Of a DNA stretch of 64,000 bases, positions 20,501-57,117 are shown piece after piece. A program made the translations under genes and the position numbers. The DNA is from Strigops habroptila (taxonomy: Eukaryota > Chordata > Aves > Psittaciformes > Psittacidae). The number at the start of each line of letters is the position of its first letter. Position 1 is the stretch's first letter. Below the pieces are notes generated by a model. That model worked only from the letters and a program-made list of their open reading frames with translations. It was not told the origin of the DNA and ran no database searches. Where the stretch lies: the NCBI RefSeq assembly GCF_004027225.2, contig NW_022651105.1, positions 62,001-126,000 on the forward strand, in the 5' to 3' direction.

Positions 20501-23500
20501 GGGGTATCTATGGGGCTCTCTGGGGTATCTATGGGGTGCCGTGGGGCGCAGGCGCTGGCTGCGGGGACGCTGCTGCGCTTCATGCGGGACATCGCGGCCG
20601 GGATGGAATATCTGAGCAGCAGGAACTTCATCCACCGGGACCTGGCGGCCAGGAACTGCATGTGGGGCACGGGGCACATGGGGGGCACATGTGGGGCAGG
20701 GGGGCACATGGGGGGCACATGGGGGGCAGGGGGCACATGTGGGGCACGGGGCACATGGGGGGCACATGTGGGGCATGGGGCACATGGGGGGCGCGGGGCA
20801 CATGGGGGGCACATGTGGGGCATGGGGCAGGGGGACACGTGTGGGGCACAGGGCAGGGGGGGCATGGGGCGGGGAGACACGTGGGGGGGCAATGGGGATG
20901 GGGGACATGGAGATATGGGGCCCATTGGGATGACCATTGAGGTGCCCATTGGGTTGACTTTGGGTTGGCCTCTGGGTGCCCATTGGGTGCTCATTGAGGT
21001 GCCCATTGGGATGCCGACTGGGTGCCCATTGAGGTGCACATTGGGTTGACCATTGGGTGCCCATTGGGTTGAGGATTGGGTGCTCACTGGGGTGCCCACT
21101 GGGGTGCCCATTGGGTGCCCATTGGGTGCCCATTGGGATGCCCATTAGGTTGACCTTTGAGGTGCCCATTGAGGTGCCCATTGGGTGCCCACTGGGGTGC
21201 CCATTGGGTGCCCATTGGGATGCCCATTGGAGTGCCCATTGAGGTGCCCATTGGGTGCCCATTGGGTTGACCTTTGAGGTGCCCACTGGGGTGCCCACTG
21301 GGGTGCCCATTGGGTGCCCATTGGGTGCCCATTGGGTTGACCATTGAGGTTCCCATTGGGTGCCCATTGGGGTGCCCATTGGGATGCCCATTGGGGTGCC
21401 CATTGGGTGCCCATTGGGTTGACCATTGGGGTGCCCATTGGGTGCCCACTGGGTGCCCCTTTGTGAGCGGGTGCCCCGCCGCAGGCTGGACGAGCGCCTG
21501 CGGGTGCTGGTGGCTGACTTCGGGCTGGCCAAGCGCCTGGGGGGGGGGCAGTACTACCGCCAGGGGCGGGTGGCGCCCGTGCCCGTCAAGTGGGTGGCGC
21601 TGGAGAGCCTGGCCGACCGCGTCTACAGCACCAAGAGCGACGTGGTGAGCCCCCAGGCACCCAACACACCCCAAACACCCCCTCAAACACCCCCAAACAC
21701 CCTGAGACACCCCCAAACACCCCCAGAACACCCCCAAACACCCTGAGACACCCCCAAACACCCTGAGACACCCTGAAACACCCCCAAAAACCCCAAAACA
21801 CCCTGAAACACCCCCAAACACCCTGAGACACCCCCAAAACACCCCAAAACACCCCCAAACACCCCGAAACACCCCGAAACACCCCCAGAACACCCCCAAA
21901 CACCCTGAGACACCCCCAAACACCCTGAAACACCCTGAAACACCCCCAAAACACCCCCAAACACCCTGAGACACCCCCAAACACCCTGAAACACCCCCAA
22001 ACACCCCAAAACACCCTGAAACACCCCCAAAACACCCTCAAACACCGAGACACCCCCAAACACCCCCAAATACCCCAAAACACCCCCAAAACACCCTGAG
22101 ACACACCAAGCACCCCCAAAACACCCCAAAACACCCCCGAAACACCCCCAAACACCCTAAAACACCCCAAAGCACACCTCCAACACCCCCAAAACACCCC
22201 AAAGCACCCCAAAACGCCCCCAAAACACCCCCCAAACACCCCAAAACACCCCGAAACACCCCAAATCACCCCCAAAACACCCTACAACGCCCCAAAGCAC
22301 CCCAAAAGCATCCCAAAAAACCCCAAAAGCACCCCAGAACACCCCTACAACACTGCCAAAACACCCTAAAACACCCCCAATCACCCCAAACACCTCCAAA
22401 ACACCCCAAAACACCCACAAAACGGCCCCAGAACACCCCAAATCACCCCAAAATACCCCAAATCACCCCCAAAGCCCCCTGGGACCCCTCAAGCTCCCCC
22501 CCAACACCCCCCACCTTCTTCTAGCCAATGGGAGGGGGAACTTTGGGGCTCCCAGCCAATGGGAGGGAGCGTCTTCGTGGATCCCAGCCCCCAGGCGGTG
22601 GGAGGAGGAAGCAGGGGAGCTCCCAGCCAATGGGAGGGCAGCTCGGGGGCTCCCAGCCAATGGGAGGGCAGCTCCGGGGCTCCCAGCCAATGGGTGCTCG
22701 CGCCCGCAGTGGTCCTTCGGGGTGACGATGTGGGAGATCCTGGCGCGCGGGCGCACCCCCTACCCCGGGCTGGAGAACGGCGACGTCTACGAGTACCTGC
22801 GGGGGGGGCAGCGCCTGCGGGCGCCCCCCGGCTGCCCCCCCGAGCTGTGAGTGCCCCATAGAGCCCATAGCGCCCATAGAGCCCATAGAGCCCATAGAGC
22901 CCATAGCGCCCATAGAGCCCATAGCGCCCATAGAGCCTCATAGCGCCCATAGAGCCCATAGCGCCCATAGAGCCTCATAGCGCCCATAGAGCCCATAGAG
23001 CCCATAGCGCCCATAGAGCCTCATAGCGCCCATAGAGCCCATAGCGCCCATAGAGCCTCATAGCGCCCATAGAGCCCATAGCGCCCATAGAGCCCATAGA
23101 GCCCCATAGACACCCACAGACCCCCCGGCTGCCCCCCCGAGCTGTGAGTGACCCACACACCCCATAGCGCCCCATAGAGCCCCATAGAGCCCATAGCTCC
23201 CCATAGAGCCCATAGAGCCCCATAGAGCCCATAGAGCCCCATAGACCCCCCAGCTGCCCTCCTGAGCTGTGAGTGACCCACACACCCCATAGCGCCCCAT
23301 AGAGCCCATAGAGCCCATAGAGCCCATAGCGCCCATAGCGCCCATAGAGCCTCATAGCGCCCCATAGAGCCCATAGCGCCCCATAGAGCCCATAGAGCCC
23401 ATAGAGCTCATAGAGCCCATAGAGCCCATAGTGCCCCACAGACCCCATAGAGCCCCATAGCGCCCATAGAGCCGCTAGAGCCCCACAGACCCCATAGAGC

Positions 23501-24783
23501 CCCATAGCGCCCATAGAGCCGCTAGAGCCCCACAGAGCCCATAGAGCCTCATAGCGCCCCATAGAGCCCATAGAGCCCACAGCGCCCCATAGACCCTCAT
23601 AGCGCCCCATAGAGCCCATAGACACCCACAGACCCCCCGGCTGCCCCCCCGAGCTGTGAGTGACCCATAGAGCCCATAGCGCCCATAGAGCCCCATAGCA
23701 CCCATAGAGCTCATAGAGCCCATAGCGCCCCATAGAGCTCATAGAGCCCCATAGCGCCCCATAGAGCCCATAGAGCCCATAGAGCCCCATAGAGCCCAGA
23801 GAGCCCCATAGAGCCCATAGAGCCCAGAGAGCCCCATAGAGCCCATAGAGCCCATAGAGCCCATAGACACCCACAGACCCCCCGGCTGCCCCCCCGAGCT
23901 GTGAGTGACCCACACACCCCATAGCGCCCCATAGAGCCCCATAGAGCCCCATAGAGCCCATAGAGCCCCATAGACCCCCCAGCTGCCCTCCTGAGCTGTG
24001 AGTGACCCACACACCCCATAGCGCCCCATAGAGCCCATAGAGCCCCATAGAGCCCCATAGAGCCCATAGCGCCCCATAGAGCCCCATAGAGCCCCATAGA
24101 GCCCCATAGAGCCCATAGAGCCCATAGAGCCCCATAGAGCCCATAGAGCCCATAGACACCCACAGGCCCCCTGGCTGTCCCCCCGAGCTGTGGGTGCCCC
24201 ATAGCACCCCATAGACCCCATAGAGCTCCATAGAGCCCATAGCGCCCCATAGACCCCATAGAGCCCGTAGAGCTCCATAGAGCCCCATATAGCCCATAGA
24301 GCCCCATAGAGCCCGTAGCGCCCCATAGATGCCATAGACCCCCATAGACTCCCATAGTCCCCCAGAGCCCCCATAGCCTCCATACCCCCCCATACCCCCA
24401 TACCCCCCATAGCCCCCGTACCCCCACACCCCCCATAGCCCCACACCCCCCCCGTGCCCCCAGGTACGCGCTGATGCTGCGGTGCTGGGCCGCGGACCCC
24501 CGGGACAGACCAACCTTCACCGAGCTGGGGGGGGCGCTGGGGGGGGCGCTCCGCGCGCTGCCCCCGCCCCCCCCCCGGGCCCCCCGACCCCCTCTATGTC
24601 AACATGGGGGAGGGGGGCGCCGCCGGGGGCCCCCCAACACTGGGCAAGGAGGGGGGGGGCGACCCCCCCGAGCCCCCCCCGCTCCCCCACAGCGAGGGGG
24701 GCCCCGGGCGCTACGTGGTGTGTCCGCCCCCCCCTCCCGGGGACCCCCCCGGGGACCCCCCCGGCCCATTGGGCTGTGCCTGA
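8576..24783 (+). CDS. AXL: AXL, TAM-family receptor tyrosine kinase (20 exons, about 858 aa)
   Basis: AXL is the GAS6 receptor, acting in clearance of apoptotic cells, cell survival and damping of innate immunity. Exons: 8576-8696, 10603-10798, 11453-11553, 11983-12165, 12846-12926, 13111-13226, 14404-14560, 15319-15458, 16130-16256, 16552-16581, 16897-17023, 17103-17185, 18463-18558, 18666-18743, 19017-19109, 19828-19949, 20552-20661, 21485-21644, 22710-22846, 24464-24783. Phases agree throughout. Order: signal peptide (exon 1), two Ig domains (exons 2-5), two fibronectin III domains (6-9), 30-nt juxtamembrane exon 10, transmembrane helix with Ala-Leu-Val repeats (11), kinase (13-20). Kinase motifs: [36 protein letters not shown] activation loop, and TAM-type KWVALES. 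In exon 20 a run of ten C (24567-24576) shifts the frame by one; one C fewer restores the conserved LYVNM tyrosine motif and the tail ending at 24783. Confidence 0.95.
8700..9275. repeat. Minisatellite A in AXL intron 1
   Basis: About 25 units of GGATCAAGGGGGGG, GTCCGGGATAA and CAGGATGAAGG type. Starts within a few bases of the exon 1 donor. Confidence 0.85.
9410..10565. repeat. Minisatellite B in AXL intron 1
   Basis: First half: GGGGTTCAGTGGGGTTCAAT units. Second half (10050-10560): GGGTGTCAATGATGTCAAT units of 15-18 bp. The array runs to about 40 bp before the exon 2 acceptor. The 130 bp between arrays A and B (9280-9409) is unique sequence with no convincing exon. Confidence 0.85.
10855..11270. 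repeat. Decamer-based array in AXL intron 2
   Basis: Repeats of GGGATAGAGC and GGGATACAGT, unit 10 bp with 20-30 bp higher order. Confidence 0.9.
11575..11965. repeat. Minisatellite in AXL intron 3
   Basis: About 15 units of CCCCATAAGTGTGGGTCA and CCCCATAGCTGTGGGTC. Confidence 0.85.
12215..12835. repeat. CCCCCATTGC array in AXL intron 4
   Basis: About 60 copies of a 9-10 bp CCCCCATTG(C) unit filling the intron that splits the second Ig domain. Confidence 0.9.
13235..14370. repeat. Two arrays in AXL intron 6
   Basis: 13235-13870: GGGGGGCTATGGGGGCAT units, G-rich on the coding strand. 13880-14370: TCTCTATGGTCTCTCTATGC units. Together they occupy almost the entire intron. Confidence 0.88.
14575..15285. 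repeat. GGGGGGTCAATGG array in AXL intron 7
   Basis: About 45 copies of a 13-15 bp unit with GGTCAATGGG and GGCTATGGGG variants. Confidence 0.88.
15465..16110. repeat. GACCCATAGAGACCCC array in AXL intron 8
   Basis: 10-16 bp units (GACCCACAGC, GACCCCATAGA), beginning 6 bp after the exon 8 donor. Confidence 0.88.
16300..16530. repeat. CCCATATCCCACACC array in AXL intron 9
   Basis: About 20 copies of a 10-11 bp unit alternating CCCATATCC and CCACACC. Confidence 0.85.
16590..16865. repeat. GATGAT microsatellite in AXL intron 10
   Basis: GATGATGATGGAT trinucleotide-based tract filling the intron between mini-exon 10 and the transmembrane exon. Confidence 0.92.
17190..18455. repeat. Minisatellites in AXL intron 12
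   Basis: 17190-18120: 9-18 bp units of GGTGTCCATGGTGTCCAT type. 18125-18450: nine almost identical 36-bp units containing GGTACCTATGGGTCTCTATG, recently homogenised. The array ends just before the exon 13 acceptor. Confidence 0.92.
18755..19005. repeat. ACCACCCC minisatellite in AXL intron 14
   Basis: About six units of roughly 40 bp (AAACCACCCCAAAACCACCC then CGAAGCACCCCCAAAGCACC). Confidence 0.88.
19125..19800. repeat. GGGTGCTATGGGGCTCTAT array in AXL intron 15
   Basis: About 40 copies of 9-18 bp units (GGTGCTATGG, AGCTCTATGG). Confidence 0.88.
19980..20545. repeat. Minisatellite in AXL intron 16
   Basis: Units containing GGGGTATCTATGGGGTGCC and GTGGGGCTCTCT, preceded by GGGGTCCATGGGGCTCTATG copies. 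Confidence 0.88.
20662..21475. repeat. Two arrays in AXL intron 17
   Basis: 20662-20900: GGCACATGTGGGGCACGGGG units that begin at the donor itself, so the donor sequence CAT|GTGGGGCA recurs inside the array. 20930-21475: GGTGCCCATTGGGTGCCCAT and GGGTTGACC units; closely related units occur in TGFB1 introns 1 and 3. Confidence 0.88.
21655..22495. repeat. ACACCCTGAGACACCCCC array in AXL intron 18
   Basis: 10-20 bp units of CACCCCCAAACACCCTGAGA type, more degenerate after 22150. Confidence 0.88.
22520..22695 (+). repeat. 30-bp repeat with five CCAAT boxes in AXL intron 18
   Basis: Units of about 30 bp, each carrying AGCCAATGGG, a perfect NF-Y site. CCAAT cores are at 22524, 22556, 22627, 22657 and 22687, all on the + strand, just upstream of exon 19. 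No promoter function is shown. Confidence 0.8.
22850..24440. repeat. AXL intron 19 array with copies of the exon 19 donor
   Basis: 1.6 kb built on CCCATAGAGCCCATAGCGCC. Six times the array contains a copy of the last 23 nt of exon 19 plus its 5' splice site (core CCCCGAGCT|GTGAGTG), with extra donor positions at 23144, 23269, 23656, 23901, 23998 and 24190 (the last GTGGGT). The true donor is at 22847. From 24310 the sequence becomes CCCCCATAGCC-type and leads to the exon 20 acceptor. Confidence 0.9.
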
Positions 24784-48473: not shown

Positions 48474-51400
48474 TCAGCTGCACTTGCAGGCCCGCACCAC
48501 CATGTCCGAGAGCTGCTCCACGCGCGCCTTGCGCCCCACGTAGTAGACGATGGGCAGCGGGTCCAGGCTCTGCGGCACGCAGCACGGCGCGGCCGAGCCC
48601 CCCGGGTTGTGCTGGTTGTACAGCGCCAGCACCTGCCGCCAGGGGGCGCCGTGAGCGACGGGCCCCCCCGCCCGCGGGTCCAGCCCCGTGGCTGTGGGTC
48701 CCACCCCACACCTATGGGTCCAGCCCCACATCTATAGGTTCAGCCCCACATCTATGGGTCCCAGCCCCACATCTACAGGTTCCAGATCCACATCTATGGG
48801 TCCCAGCCCCACATCTATAGGTTCAGCCCCACATCTATGGGTCCCAGCCCCACATCTACAGGTTCCAGATCCACATCTATGGGTCCCAGCCCCACATCTA
48901 TAGGTTCAGCCCCACATCTATGGGTCCCAGCCCCACATCTACGGGTCCCAGCCCCACATCTACGGGTCCCAGCCCCTCTCTGTGGGTCCCAGCCCCACAT
49001 CTATGGGTGCCAGCCCCTCTCTCTGGGTCCCAGCCCCACATCTATGGATGCCAGCCCCACATCTACGGGTCCCAGCTTCACATCTACGGGTCCCAGCCCC
49101 ACATCTACGGGTTCCAGATCCACATCTATGGGTCCCAGCCCCACATCTATGGGTCCCAGCCCCACATCTACGGGTCCCAGCCCCTCTCTGTGGGTCCCAG
49201 CCACACATCTATGGGTCGCACCGCACACTTATGGGTTCAGCCCCACATCTACAGGTCCCAGCCCCACATCTATAGGTTCAGCCCCACATCTATGGGTCCC
49301 AGCCCCACATCTACGGGTTCCAGCCCCACATCTGTGGGTCTCACCCCACACTTATGGGTTCAGCCCCACATCTACGGGTCCCAGCCCCACATCAGTGGGT
49401 CCCACCTCTCTCTTCTGGGTTCAGCCCCACACTTAGGGGTCCCGCCCCACACTTAGGGGTCCCACCCCCGATCTATGGGTCCCGCCCCACACTTGTGGGT
49501 CCCATCCCCACACTTATGGGTCCCTCCCCCGATCTATGGGTCCCGCCCCACCTTGGAGTACTGCGTGTCCGCGCTCCAGAGGTAGGGGCAGGCGCCGCCG
49601 CAGAAGTTGGCCATGTAGCCGCGGGGCTCGTGGATCCAGCGCCACTGCAGGTCCCGCCGGAAGTCGATGTAGAGCGGCCGCACGCAGCAGCTCTGCTCCT
49701 CCGGCCTGGGGGCGCAGCGGCGGCTGTGGGGCGCTGGGGGGCTGGGGGGCTATGGGGGGGCAATGGGGGCTATGGTGCAATGGGGTAATACAGGGTGCTA
49801 TGGGGGGCAATGGGTCATATGGGGGTGTATGGGGGGCAATGGGGTCCTATGGGGATCTATGGGGGGCAATGGGACATATGGAGGTCCTACGGGGGGCTAT
49901 GAGGGGCAATGGGTCAGATAGGGGTCTATGGGGGGCAAATGGGTCATACAGGGGCAATGGGTAATATAGGGTGCTGAGGGGGGCAATGGGGTCATATGGG
50001 GATCTATGGGGGGCAATAGCTCATATGGGGGCCTATGGGGGGCTATGGGGGCAATAGGTCAGATAGAGGTCTATGGGGGGCAATGGGGTCATATAGGGGC
50101 AATGGGTCATATGGGGGTGTATGGGGGGCAATGGGGTCCTATGGGGATCTATGGGGGGCAATGGGTCATATGGAGGTCCTATGGGGGGCAATAGCTCATA
50201 TGGGGGCCTATGGGGGGCTATGAGGGGCAATGGGTCAGATAGGGGTCTATGGGGGGCAATGGGGTCATATAGGGGCAATGGGGTAATATAGGGTGCTATG
50301 GGGGGCAATGGGTCATATGGGGGTCCTATGGGGGGGCAATAGGTCATATGGGGGCCTATGGGGGGCAGTGGGGTCCTATGGGGGTGCTATAGGGAGCAAT
50401 AGGTCATATGGGGTCCTATGGGGGCAATGGCATCATATGGGGGGCCTATGGGGGTCAGTTGGGTCCTATGGGGTGCTATGGGGGGCAATGGGTCAGATGA
50501 GGGCCTATGGGGGGGGCAATGGGTCAGATGGGGGTCTATGGGGGCACAGCCCGCCCCATAAGCAGCCATGGGGGTGATTTTGGGGTGCCCCTCACCCGAA
50601 GCAGAACTGGGTGTCCCGAGGGGTGGCCTGGGCTGATTTGGGCCAGTTCAGGGTGATTTGGGGGTGATCATTGGGGCAGCCAGTGGGGTGTCACCGAGGG
50701 GCCCATCGGGTGGTTCGGGCTGATTTCGGGGCTGGTTTGGGGCTGTTTGTGCTCACCGGAAGCAGAACTGGGGGTCCATGGGGTGGTTTGGGGCTGGTTT
50801 TGGCTGGTTTTGGGCTGTTTTGGGGCAGTTTCGGGCTGTTTTGGGCCGGTTTGGGGCTGGTTTTGGCTGTTTTGGGGCTGTTTTGGGCCCCTTTTGGGCT
50901 GGTTTGGGCTCACCCAAAGCAGAACTGCGGGTCCATGGCGTGGTTTGGGGCTGGTTTTGGCTGTTTTGGGCCGGTTTGGGGCTATTTTTGGCTGTTTTGG
51001 GGCTGTTTGGGGCCGATTTGGGGCTATTTTTGGCTGTTTTGGGGCTGGTTTTGGCTATTTTGGGGCTGGTTTTGGCTGTTTGGGGCTGTTTGTGCTCACC
51101 CGAAGCAGAACTGGGGGTTCATGGTGTGGTTTGGGGCTGGTTTTGGCTGTTTTGGGGCTGTTTTGGGGCACTTTTGGACTGTTTTGGGCTGGTTTGGGGC
51201 TATTTTGGGGCTGGTTTTGGCTGTTTTGGGGCTGTTTTGTGCCAGTTTGGGGCTGTTTCAGGCTGGTTTAGGGCTATTTTTGGCTGTTTTGGGGCTGGCT
51301 TGGGCTGTTTTGGGGCTGTTTGGGGCTGGTTTGGGGCTGTTTCGGGCCAGTTTGGGGCTATTTTTGGCTGTTTTGGGGCTGGTTTTGGCTGGTTTGGGGC

Positions 51401-54400
51401 TGGTTTTGGCTGTTTTGGGGCTGGTTTCGGCTGGTTTGGGGCTGTTTCGGGCCGGTTTGGGGCTATTTTTGGCTGTTTTGGGGCTGGTTTCGGCTGTTTT
51501 GGGGCTGTTTTGGGCCGGTTTGGGGCTATTTTTTGCTGTTTTGGGCTATTTTTGGCTGTTTTGGGGCTGGTTTTGGCTGTTTTGGGGCTGGTTTCGGCTG
51601 GTTTGGGGCTGTTTCGGGCCGGTTTGGGGCTGGTTTCGGCTGTTTGGGGCTGTTTGTGCTCACCCGAAGCAGAACTGGGGCTCGAGGCCGCGGCGGCGCC
51701 GGGCGCTGCGCAGGTCGTTGCCGCGCTCGGGGGGCAGCACCATGGCCAGCACGTAGGGGACGCGCCGGTGCTTCTGCGCGATGCTCTGCATGTCCCCGCG
51801 CTGCTGCTCGAACCCTGCGCCCGGGGGGGGGGACTCACCACTGGGGGGGCCCCAGCGCACGGCCGGACCCCAAAACCAGCCGAACTCAACCCAAAAGCCG
51901 CCCCCCCCCCCCCCGCAGCGGTACCTTCGATGGTGATCCGCATGGGGGGGGGCGGCCCCGGCTCGTCACAGGGACAATGGACGCTCAGCTTGAAGGTGCC
52001 CAAAGGCTCTGTGGGGAGAAGGGGGTCAGGGGGGGACGGGGGATGTGCGGTGGGGGCATCGTGGGGACACGGGATGACCATTGGGGCAACCATTGGGGCA
52101 AGCATTGGGGTGATCGTTGGGATGATCATTGGGTGCCCATTCAACCATTGCGGTGACCATTGGGGCAACCATTGGGGTGCCCGTTGGGTTGACTCTTGGT
52201 TGACCATTGGGATGACCATTGGGTGCCCATTGGGGTGCCCATTAAGGTACCCACTTGGGCAACCACTGAGGTGCCCATTGGGTTGACCATTAGGATGCCC
52301 ATTAAAGTGCCCGTTGGGACACCCATTGGGACGACCATTGGGGTGCCCATTGGGTTGACTCTTGGTTGACCATTGGGCTGACTCTTGGTTGACCATTGGG
52401 GTGCCCATTGAGGTGCCCATTGGAGCATTCATTGGGGCGACCATTGGGGTGACCATCGGGATGATCACTGGGTGCCCATTGGGTTGACCATTGGGTTGAC
52501 CATCGGGATGCCCATTGGGACACCCATTGGGATGACCATGGGGTGCCCACTGGGGTACCCATTGGGGCGATCACTGGGGTGCCCATTGGGTTGAGTCTTG
52601 GTTGACCATTGGAATGCCCATTGGGGTGCCCATTGGGATGATCATTGGGGTACCCATTGGGGTGCCCATTGGGACACCCACTGGCTGTGGGGCGGCCCCC
52701 CCCCGAGCGTCACCGTTGCCCCTGAGCCATTGCTGCACGGCCTCGGTGACATCGAACCAGAGCCACTCCTCGTCCGGCGCCGCCTGCACCCACCGGCCCT
52801 GCAGGTACCGCCACGAGGCGTTGCCGAAGCCCTGTGGGGAGACGGGATCCCCACATGGCACCGGGGACCCCAAAACCTGCCCCGGGACCCCCACATGGCA
52901 CCAGGGACCCCAAAACCCACCCCGGGACCCCCACATCGCACCAGGCACCCCAAATCCCACCCCGGGACCCCCACATGGCACCAGGGACCCCAAAGCCCAA
53001 CCCGGGACACCCACATCGCACCAGGGACCCCAAAACCCAACCCGGGACCCCCACATCGCACCAGGGACCCCAAAACCCGCCCCGGGACACCCAAAACCTG
53101 CCCCGGGACCCCAAAACCCATGGGGGGGGTCCCAATGCCCTGGGCTGCCCCATTACTCATGGAGGGGGAGGTCCCCATGCCCTGGGCTGCCCCACTGCCC
53201 ATAGGGGGGGGGGGCCCAAGCCCTGGACTGTCCCATTGCCCATGGGGGGGGGGGGTACCTGGTAGAGCTCGAGGCGCTGCTGGTCGCCGCCCTCGGGCGC
53301 CCTCTGCCGGAGCAGCCGCAGCTCCGCGCGGTGCAGGAGCGCGCCCGGGCCCAGCTCCGCGCGCACCCGCGACGCGTTGAACCGCAGCAGCAGAGCGCGG
53401 CCGGGGGGGGCGCCGCGCCCCACAGCGGCTGCGGGGAGAGACAGCGCTGAGCGCCCCACAGCGCCCCACAGCGCCCCACAGCGGCTGCGGGGAGAGACAG
53501 CGCTGAGCGCCCCACAGCGCCCCACAGCGCCCCACAGCGGCTGCGGGGAGAGACAGCGCTGAGCGCTCCACAGCGCCCCACAGCGGCTGCGGGGAGAGAC
53601 AGCGCTCAGCGCCCCACAGCGCCCCACAGCGCCCCACAGCGGCTGTGGGGAGAGACAGCGCTGAGCGCCCCACAGCGCCCCACAGCGGCTGTGGGGAGAG
53701 ACAGCGCTGAGCGCCCCACAGCGCCCCACGGCGGCTGCGGGGAGAGACAGCGCTGAGCGCCCCACAGCGCCCCACAGCGGCTGCGGGGAGAGACAGCGCT
53801 GAGCGCCCCACAGCGCCCCACAGCGGCTGCGGGGAGAGACAGCGCTGAGCGCCCCACAGCGCCCCACAGCGGCTGTGGGGAGAGACAGCGCTGAGCGCCC
53901 CACAGCGGCTGCGGGGAGAGACAGCGCTGAGCGCCCCACAGCGCCCCACAGCGGCTGCGGGGAGAGACAGCGCTGAGCGCCTCATAGTGCCCCAGAGCGC
54001 CCCACAGCGTCTATGGGGGGACAGTGCTATGAGCGCCCCATAGCACCCTTCACCCGGGCTGCATTGGGCCTATGGAGTGACCCGTGTTCACTCTGGAGCG
54101 GAGCGATGGCCACAACCAGCTCCTGCACCCCAAAACCCCCCGTGTTGGGGGGCACAATGGGCACTATGAGGTTATGGGGCGCCCTATAGCGCCCCATAGC
54201 GCCCCGCCCCCCCCTTCCAGCCTCCTGGAGCCCAACAAAGGGCCCTCAGAGCCGGGGATTACTCAGCAAACCACAACGTCCGGATGGGCCGGGACAGGAG
54301 GAGCCTCGGGGGGGGGCACCCAATGGGGGGTGAAGGGGGGCCTGGGATGTGCTTCCCCCCCCATTGAGCACCCATAACCGCCCCCAGCAGAGCTCCCATG

Positions 54401-57117
54401 GGTGCCCCATCCCATAGGGGTGTCCATGACCCTCCCATCGCCCCCCCCCCCAAGCACCCATACCCCCTCATCAGCACCCAGACCCCCCCCATCACCCTCC
54501 TATCACCCCCCTGACTCCCCCATGAGCACCCATAACCCCCCCAGCATTGCTCCCACGGGTGCCCCAACCCATTGGGGTGCCCATTGGGGTGCCCACAGGG
54601 ACACCCACTGCAGTTCCCACTGGGATGTCCATAGGGTGCCCATAAGGATAACCATAGGGATGCCAACTGGGACGCCCATAGTGATGCCCATAGTGGTACC
54701 CATAGGGATGCCCACAGGGATGCCCATTGGGATACCCATGGAGATGCCCATTAGGACACCCATAGGGACACCCATAGTGATACCCATAGCGATGGTCATT
54801 GGGATGCCCACTGGAATGCCCATCTGGATACCCATTGGGATGCCCATCAGGGTACTCATAGGGGTGTCCATAGGGATGCCCATAGCGACACCCATAGGGA
54901 CATCCATAGGGATGCCCATAGTGGTACCCATAGGAATGCCGACAGGGATGCCCATAGCGATGCCCATAGGATGGCTACAGTGGTACCCATAGTGTACCCT
55001 TAGTGGTACCCATAGGGATGCCCACAGGGATGCCCATTGGGTTATCCATAATGATACCCATAGGATGCCCACAGGACACCCATTGGGACACCCATAGCAA
55101 TGCCCACTGTGGTGCCCATAAGGATACCTATAGTGATGCCCATTGGGATACCCATAGCAATGCCCATAGCGACACCCATAGTGATCCCATAGTGTGCCCA
55201 TAGTCGTGCCCATATGGACACCCATTGGGACACCCATAGTGATGCCCATTGGGACGCCCACAGTGGTACCCATAGTGATTCCCATTGGGATGTCCATTGG
55301 GCTGCCCATAAGGACACCCATAGCGACACCCATAGTGATGCCCATAGGGACGCCCATAGCAGTACCCATAGCGTGCCCATATTGGTACCCATTGGGATGC
55401 CCATAGTGATGCCCATAGGACACCCATAGCGACACCCATAGTGACACCCATACGGACACCCATAGCAGGATCCATAGCGTGCCCATATTGGTACCCATAG
55501 GGATGCCCATAGCGATGCCCATAGGGACACCCATAGCAATACCCATTGGGATGCCCATTGGGGTGCCCATAAGGATACCCACAGCGATGCCCATAGGGAC
55601 ACCCATAGCAATACCCATTGGGGTGCCCATAAGGATACCCATAGTGACACCCAAAGCGATGCCCATAGCGGTACCCATAGCGTGCCCAATTGGTACCCCT
55701 AGGGATGCCCACAGGGATGCTCATAGCACATCCATCGGGCACCCACAGTGATATCCATTGGGATGCGCATTGGGTCGCCCATAAGGATATCCATAGCGAT
55801 GCCCATAGCGATGATGCCCATAGGGACACCCATAGTGATCCCCATAGCGTGCCCATAGTGTGCCCATAGAGATGCCCATTGGGTCACCCATAGGGACACC
55901 CCTAGCAATACCCAGAGTGATGCCCATTGGGGTACCCATAGTGACACTCATAGTGACACTCATAGTGACACCCATAGGGACGCCCATAGCGGTACCCATA
56001 GTGGTACCCATAGCGTGCCCACAGGGATATCCACTGGGATGCCCATTGGGGTGCCCATAATGATACCCATAGTGACACCCATACTGATGCCCATAGGGAC
56101 ACCCATAGCGATGCCCATAGCGCGCCCATAGTGCTACCCACAGAGATGCCCATTGGGTTGCCCATAGGGACACCCATTGGGATGCCCATTGGGGTGCCCA
56201 TAAGGATACCCATAGTGATGCCCATTATGACACCCATAGTGGTACCCAGAGAGATGCCCATTGGGTTGCCCATAGGGACACCCATTGGGATGCCCATAAG
56301 GACACTCATAGTGACACCCATAGCGATACCTATAGCACGCCCATAGTGATACCCACAGACATACCCATTGGGTCGCCCATAGGGACACCCATTGGGATGC
56401 CCATTGGGGTGCCCATAAGGACACCCATAGTGACACCCATAGTGATGCCAATAGGGACACCCATAGCGATGCCCATTGGGTTGCCCATAGGGACACCCAT
56501 TGGGATGCCCATTGGGGTGCCCATAAGCATACCCATAGTGACACCCATAGTGATGCCCATAGGGACACCCATAGCGATCCCAGTAGTGCGCCCATAGTGA
56601 TACCCACAGAGATGCCCATTGGGTTGCCCATAGGACACCCATAGTGACACCCATAGCGATGCCCATAGAGCGCCCATAGTGCTACCCACAGAGATGCCCA
56701 CTGGGACACCGATTGGGACACCCATTGGGACACCCATGGTGACCCCCCCCAGTGACACCCCCCCCCCCCCCGGCTCTCACCGTCTCCGGGCGGCTCCATG
56801 GGGAAGCGATGCAGCTCCTTGGCATAATAGTCCTCGGGGGCGGGGGGGGGCGCGCCCCGCGCGCGCTGCTGCAGCAGCTCCCACGTGCTGTTGTAGAGCG
56901 CCCGCACGTCCTCGGGCAGCGCCGGGGGGGCCGAGGAGGAGGATGATGAAGGGGTGTGGGGGGGCGCGGGGGGGGGCGCCGTGAGCCGCAGCTTGCTCAG
57001 GATCTGGCCCCGAACGGCCTCGATGCGTTTCCTGCGCGCGGCCTCCAGGTCCAGCGAGCGGCACGTGGAGAGGGCGCGCGCGGCGCCCAGCACCGCCAGC
57101 AGCAGCGCCAGCTCCAT
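48474..57117 (-). CDS. TGFB1: TGFB1, transforming growth factor beta 1 (7 exons, 390 aa)
   Basis: TGFB1 is a secreted latent cytokine controlling immunity, matrix and growth. Exons in transcript order: 57117-56781, 53428-53259, 52831-52714, 52008-51925, 51814-51664, 49705-49552, 48632-48474. All phases match and give 390 aa, the human length. Features: short hydrophobic signal ([15 protein letters not shown]), latency-associated peptide with LSTC (Cys for LTBP linkage), the Cys pair HCPC, integrin-binding RGD at residues 242-244, furin site RRRR before residue 279, and a 112-aa mature domain with all nine cysteines, ending [12 protein letters not shown] and the [14 protein letters not shown] segments are of the avian type. 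Several lysines are replaced by arginine. The frame is open upstream of the ATG as far as an ATG at 57411, but that extension is low-complexity and is rejected. Confidence 0.96.
48690..49545. repeat. CCCCACATCTATGGGTCCCAG array in TGFB1 intron 6
   Basis: About 36 copies of a 21-24 bp unit, with recent blocks of near-identical multi-unit duplications. Confidence 0.92.
49740..50560. repeat. GGGGGGCAATGGGTCATATG array in TGFB1 intron 5
   Basis: About 35 units of 17-25 bp (GGGGGCAATGGGTCATATGG, GGGCCTATG). Confidence 0.9.
50585..51660. repeat. TGFB1 intron 5 array with copies of the exon 5 donor
   Basis: GGGGCTGTTTTGGGCTGG-type repeats. Four segments duplicate the exon 5 end and donor (on + CTCACCCGAAGCAGAACTGG): near 50591-50610, 50752-50770, 50910-50928 and 51094-51113. 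The true donor is at 51663-51662. Each copy is followed by GGTTTGGGGCTGG, so the exon edge was amplified with the repeat. Confidence 0.85.
52080..52690. repeat. GACCATTGGGGTGCCCATTG array in TGFB1 intron 3
   Basis: About 35 units of 12-18 bp (GGTGCCCATTGGGTTGACC, GGGATGACCATTG), of the same family as 20930-21475 in AXL intron 17. Confidence 0.88.
52845..53250. repeat. Minisatellite in TGFB1 intron 2
   Basis: About eight units of 38-40 bp containing CCCCGGGACCCCCACATGGC and ACCAGGGACCCCAAAACC, followed by TGCCCTGGGCTGCCCCA copies. Confidence 0.88.
53423..53990 (-). repeat. TGFB1 intron 1 array of 12 acceptor-site copies
   Basis: Read on the minus strand, each unit contains TCTCTCCCCGCAG|CCGCTG, the same sequence as the real exon 2 acceptor. 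Copies of the AG boundary lie at about 53429 (true), 53485, 53541, 53587, 53643, 53689, 53735, 53781, 53827, 53873, 53909 and 53955. Spacing is 36, 46 or 56 bp, i.e. a 36-bp core plus zero, one or two 10-bp GCGCCCCACA modules. Confidence 0.92.
53995..54540. other. Mostly unique stretch in TGFB1 intron 1
   Basis: About 54040-54300 is non-repetitive, containing GGGGATTACTCAGC and CAACGTCCGGATGGGCCGGG. 54340-54540 is a weak CACCCATAACCCCCC-type repeat. No exon or known element is recognised. It could hold an intronic enhancer, but nothing in the sequence proves it. Confidence 0.4.
54560..56750. repeat. 2.2-kb GGGATGCCCATAGTGACACC array in TGFB1 intron 1
   Basis: About 140 units of 12-18 bp (GGGATGCCCATTG, GTGACACCCATAG, GTGGTACCCATAG), with higher-order periods of several hundred bases (for example around 56150-56700). 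It is the longest single array of the window and ends just before the exon 1 donor. Confidence 0.92.

Follow-up and report, generated by a model that had tools for sequence, protein, structure and literature searches.

In the kakapo (Strigops habroptila) the acceptor of TGFB1 exon 2 is the last of twelve near-identical tandem copies (53954-53428, minus strand), each composed of the pyrimidine tract, CAG and the first 14 bases of the exon. This twelve-copy structure is real, and we consider it very probable that it represents exon stuttering, in which a block across the border between intron 1 and exon 2 has been multiplied locally, in tandem and in direct orientation, on a small contig dense in repeats, and that it is carried as a passive load. 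The window (the whole stretch of DNA analyzed, 64 kb) is C77:62001-126000 of a 684,923-bp contig; coordinates without the prefix C77 are those of the window.

The Acceptor Array

On its minus strand the 64-kb window contains twelve occurrences of the motif TCTCTCCCC[G/A]CAG, on its plus strand none. The bases directly following AG (minus strand) are 53954, 53908, 53872, 53826, 53780, 53734, 53688, 53642, 53586, 53540, 53484 and 53428, which gives 11 intervals, seven of 46 bp, three of 56 bp and one of 36 bp. Unit decomposition traced the three lengths to one (36 bp), two (46 bp) or three (56 bp) GCGCTGTGGG-type 10-mers per unit, and TRF returned a single array at 53415-53999 with a period of 46, 12.3 copies and a score of 767. 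Motif count and TRF thus agree with the twelve copies spaced 36, 46 or 56 bp apart that the first-pass annotation had reported; its remark that the spacings are not multiples of three is true of 46 and 56 bp and wrong for 36 bp, which occurs once. Over the 40-base core (-26 to +14) only 5 of 480 positions in the twelve copies deviate from the consensus, every copy matching it in 39 or 40 of 40 bases. Twelve members had been counted, which is correct for the near-identical ones; a diverged thirteenth copy, apparently a relic, has its boundary at 54010. The features are:

53415..53999, minus strand: tandem array with a 46-bp period and 36- and 56-bp variants, lying across the intron 1/exon 2 boundary (TRF, unit decomposition)
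53429..53954, minus strand: the 11 upstream acceptor modules (motif count, core alignment)
53415..53454, minus strand: twelfth copy, the acceptor giving the intact protein, with CTCAG (the A at -20 being a candidate branch point), TGTCTCTCCCCGCAG, the boundary 53429/53428 and the first 14 exon bases; start of exon 2 in two listed RefSeq isoforms
53997..54036, minus strand: diverged thirteenth (relic) copy, differing from the core consensus at 9 of 40 positions when aligned ungapped

Chance similarity as the source of the copies was set aside: the acceptor motif was absent from all 100 sequences simulated for the window under a first-order Markov model, and the 26-base acceptor window, with up to 5 mismatches allowed, had no match on the opposite strand and none on the reversed sequence. 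A dispersed repeat with exact copies elsewhere was likewise set aside. The exact 26-base unit has 11 matches genome-wide, all within the TGFB1 array (the twelfth copy has one substitution), and no exact match was reported outside it in the whole 1.149-Gb genome.

The copy number was read from one assembly, and GC-rich repeats are prone to error. Moreover, no candidate for a second haplotype was among the exact matches reported. A long-read consensus error that multiplied or altered the unit is nevertheless extremely unlikely, since the copies carry variants and come in three unit lengths, the array of less than 600 bp should be short relative to a long read, and the reading frames on either side are intact. 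In addition, a structure of the same kind in chicken PHF8 was verified by the authors in raw nanopore reads (Hron et al., 2026; PMC12954441).

Gene Model and RefSeq Isoforms

That the gene is TGFB1, as first annotated, is borne out by a model of seven exons with GT/AG borders, which encodes an intact protein of 390 residues when exon 2 starts at 53428. The product matches PDB TGFB1 proprotein chains over almost its full length (residues 2-390, best E 2.1e-121) and is 100% identical to P0001, the RefSeq TGFB1 isoform X2 of Strigops habroptila. The real acceptor had been named as the last member of the array, and the intact protein obtained from 53428 agrees with this. Human exon boundaries were used as general background. 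The exons of the model are:

56781..57117, minus strand: exon 1, coding part, 337 bp, ending in phase 1
53259..53428, minus strand: exon 2, 170 bp (protein identical to P0001)
52714..52831, minus strand: exon 3
51925..52008, minus strand: exon 4
51664..51814, minus strand: exon 5, likewise copied at its 3′ edge with the donor
49552..49705, minus strand: exon 6 (for isoform X1 the start that fits is 49749)
48474..48632, minus strand: exon 7, coding part with the stop

The second kakapo isoform, X1 (P0008, 542 aa), is identical to the model through exons 1-5 and therefore also starts exon 2 at 53428. X1 and X2 are the two kakapo isoforms among the best 120 of 776 protein matches; both take exon 2 from 53428 and neither contains an upstream copy. 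These are RefSeq models, and the apparent preference for 53428 rests on them.

When exon 6 is begun at 49749, at an acceptor-like CCCCCCATAG 44 bases upstream, the model yields 542 residues and agrees with P0008 in the two stretches compared. Position 49749 falls in the TRF repeat row 49735-50492, just inside one end of the repeat in intron 5. Isoform X1 is frameshifted through the mature cytokine, and X1 with its array-edge acceptor may be an annotation artefact. Because X1 fits this acceptor, annotation evidently does not always ignore acceptors of arrays, a point against our account of the exon 2 array as a passive load.

What the Upstream Acceptors Would Do

Use of an upstream acceptor would enlarge exon 2 from 170 bp to 226-696 bp. 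Where the stop precedes the last exon junction by more than 55 nt, a transcript is of the type subject to nonsense-mediated decay (NMD). This would be the case for 8 of the 11 upstream choices, whereas 3 of 11 (53908, 53872 and 53734) keep the frame open and would insert 160, 148 and 102 residues, respectively. The prediction that most upstream choices break the frame thus stands, with three of them preserving it when the spacings are added up. The consensus unit itself has no stop in any frame.

To judge from their sequences, all copies seem to hold the full set of signals of a 3′ splice site. Within each core, A occurs at two sites: in CTCAG (in one copy CTGAG), where the A at -20 is a candidate branch point, and in the acceptor, which reads GCAG or ACAG. 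When branch points were ranked against a general consensus, 54167 and 54030, both upstream of the array, scored above its CTCAG. Among the 52 YAG sites in intron 1, 12 have at least 10 pyrimidines in 12 positions, the value of the real acceptor. With local signals so nearly alike in all copies, position and downstream exon context must decide, if 53428 is indeed preferred. In exon definition the splice sites on both sides of an exon are recognized together, and this would be the simplest cue: the exon-proximal 53428, lying beside its donor, gives the shortest exon 2 (170 bp versus 226-696 bp). Transcripts from upstream acceptors would then mostly be culled as NMD type, and the array would probably be tolerated as a near-neutral load rather than act as a switch.

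These same properties can be read as a regulatory bank of acceptors: splicing would pick among twelve modules, the non-productive share of TGFB1 transcripts would be changeable, and output would be set by copy number. The near identity of the modules, a consensus unit free of stops in all frames and the NMD-type transcripts from most upstream choices speak for such a device. However, both listed RefSeq isoforms use 53428, and another border of the gene and another gene have also been copied (see below), for which no role of TGFB1 is needed. We regard the acceptor bank as quite unlikely. Regulation by acceptor choice is possible, but the proposal of the first-pass annotation that TGFB1 output is tuned in this way found no support. 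That the number of copies varies between individuals, as was also proposed, is plausible by analogy to the chicken, in which 183 of 192 exon-stuttering introns tested were variable in length (Hron et al., 2026; PMC12954441).

Other Copied Splice Borders on the Contig

Two of the 12 splice borders of TGFB1 are copied at the thresholds used, the second being the 3′ edge of exon 5 with its donor. A gene-free scan of C77:1-216000, with thresholds set by the analyst and run without a control, gave 51 candidates (24 on the plus strand and 27 on the minus strand) including both TGFB1 sites; 10 candidates were translated and 6 inspected copy by copy. The copied borders other than that of exon 2 are:

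50588..51116, minus strand: stretch of intron 5 in which the exon 5 edge and donor (CAGTTCTGCTTCGG followed by GTGAGC...) recur four times, the last exon-like bases being 51100, 50914, 50757 and 50596 (inspected copy by copy)
22824..24190, plus strand: exon edge and donor of an AXL/TYRO3/MER-like kinase (CCCCCCGGCTGCCCCCCCGAGCT followed by GTGAGTG, donor 22847), repeated six more times downstream as far as the donor at 24190 (gene-free scan, inspected)
C77:148475-149353, minus strand: Nop53-like exon with recurring donor GCTTCCCACCCCC followed by GTGAGTG (L026; 17 rows at up to 4 mismatches, its own included, some of them weak)
C77:5706-6050, plus strand: recurring donor-like CACTTCCAG followed by GTACCCCC after a short open frame (L017; 14 rows, its own included)

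The kinase exon is TYRO3/UFO/MER-like (best E 1.4e-15) and has a Pfam kinase match; its donor copies, seven in all, hold up to 23 exon bases and thereby reach the length criterion of the published screen discussed below. The Pfam match of the Nop53-like exon is below the cut-off (E 0.13). Two further inspected scan rows are acceptor candidates of putative exons.

In the intron 5 copies the frame of the exon 5 edge (donor at 51664) can be followed: three of the four have D where the real edge (GLEPQFCFG) has E. The parrot proteins P0002 and P0004 also have D at this position, so the copies may predate a change in the kakapo.

Since copying is also observed at the exon 5 donor and in the neighboring kinase gene, the array is not specific to TGFB1, and a TGFB1-specific regulatory device was set aside. 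The paralogues of the PF00688 family elsewhere in the genome have a single acceptor copy in four of four cases (about 2 kb per exon region). The setting is rich in repeats, with a GC content of 0.62 and 409 TRF rows in the window. Some TRF arrays break off within a few bases of TGFB1 exon borders: 48695-49551 ends at the exon 6 donor, and only five bases separate 53122-53253 from the exon 2 donor. If the acceptor array is exon stuttering, as we prefer to read it, its copies may have arisen, and may have stayed so similar, through slippage, unequal exchange or gene conversion.

The Start of Exon 2 in Parrots and Other Birds

For comparison of the exon 1/2 junction 36 proteins were given, of which 19 entries from birds other than parrots were readable, some of them from the same species. 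Between a conserved R and FN the kakapo protein has 24 residues, and those of the three other parrots listed have 19, 19 and 25. Relative to the two parrots with 19 residues the kakapo has AVGRG in addition, the codons of which lie mostly inside the array unit; the third parrot has different residues at this position, and its 25 residues seem to reflect a shift of the exon 1 donor, to which GESGI points. Among the non-parrot entries 15 of 19 have 24 residues, the remainder having 19, 20, 25 and 33. This favors the view that the kakapo kept the ancestral length and that 15 bp were lost in other parrots. The predicted TGFB1 P0024 from Catharus ustulatus has extra residues at the exon 1/2 junction relative to P0025 from the same species, possibly owing to another copied or shifted splice site.

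The distribution of AVGRG among the parrots listed raises the question whether an intronic repeat entered exon 2 and supplied these codons, so that sequence would have passed from the array to the exon edge. In line with this, intron 1 outside the array contains 25 matches to GCGCTATGGG at up to 1 mismatch, compared with a mean of 0.19 in 200 mononucleotide shuffles, and 3 to GCGCTGTGGG, compared with a shuffled mean of 0.25. However, 23 of the 25 GCGCTATGGG matches belong to a different repeat, a 12-bp minisatellite at 54568-56700, and the spacing of 24 residues shared with most non-parrot birds is more simply explained by retention of the ancestral length. We consider such a rewriting of the exon doubtful. 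It is very unlikely that twelve full-strength modules compete on each transcript, that the productive share varies with array length between birds and that the array also wrote AVGRG into the latency-associated peptide; if all this were true, a dot-chromosome minisatellite would be a mutator of both splicing and protein coding.

Significance

With the TGFB1 array, read as exon stuttering, a phenomenon described for the chicken is now found in a parrot and in a gene for a central cytokine. The array also shows that copies can be numerous even when their exonic part is shorter than 20 bases, a size removed by the published screen. A dozen near-identical acceptors in series, differing mainly in position and downstream context, amount to a natural test of splice-site choice. 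The kakapo is an endangered and closely monitored bird, in which array length could be set against TGFB1 splicing.

Comparison with Known Systems

NAGNAG sites are tandem alternative acceptors spaced 3 nucleotides apart. They have in common with the TGFB1 array that acceptors are arranged in series ahead of one exon; the TGFB1 copies, in contrast, are 36-56 bp apart, are derived from a minisatellite and each have their own candidate branch point and pyrimidine tract. In intron gain by tandem genomic duplication, as described in PMC4974935 and PMC2891723, a duplication across a boundary likewise multiplies splice signals, whereas in TGFB1 there are only extra acceptors within an existing intron and no new intron is annotated.

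Sequence stuttering, or exon stuttering, was described for the dot chromosomes of the chicken (Hron et al., 2026; PMC12954441), and the literature search on stuttering found this paper alone. According to its main text 115 genes with 236 introns are affected, and dot chromosomes account for 190 of these introns, which is 3.4% of their 5,572; a case has 1 to 44 copies (median 4), coding regions stay intact, other birds show expansions in some instances and GC-rich gerbil genes also have the pattern. TGFB1 does not occur in this main text (the list of 115 genes is in the supplement), nor in the main text of the paper on the complete chicken genome (PMC9974502), and searches for kakapo with TGFB1 and for TGFB1 with chicken microchromosome or GC-rich exon found nothing.

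The kakapo array agrees with exon stuttering as defined there. The first 14 bases of exon 2 recur 11 times in intron 1 in the same orientation (10 perfect, one substituted), the copies span the border together with the splice site (-26 to +14), the exact 26-base unit is strictly local in the genome as judged by exact copies, and the related PF00688 genes elsewhere in the genome have a single acceptor in four of four cases. The published screen kept exonic matches from 20 bp and 42.1 bits upward, a noise filter that is not part of the definition (PMC12954441). The exon 2 matches, with 14 bp and 28.2 bits, and the best exon 5 match, with 17 bp and 34.2 bits, fall short of it, so that such copies may be under-counted. 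Twenty shuffles per intron gave a maximum of 26.3 bits, and the non-adjacent pair of exon 1 and intron 6 reached 30.2 bits over 15 bp; bit score alone therefore cannot part the exon 2 copies from chance, and it is their number, register and shared intronic flank that set them apart.

In the chicken cases and in TGFB1 alike, an exon edge has been copied together with its donor or acceptor, the copies lying nearby in the adjoining intron, in tandem and in direct orientation. Also shared are a GC-rich and repeat-dense setting and a relative without copies, which in the chicken example is the ohnologue PHF2 and here the TGFB1 paralogues. Different are the host, the exonic part of 14 bp as compared with 20-187 bp (median 36) in the chicken, and the twelve complete, nearly identical modules (PMC12954441 for the chicken values). 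Exon stuttering in the chicken is known; the TGFB1 case in the kakapo, with its complete and uniform modules, is new.
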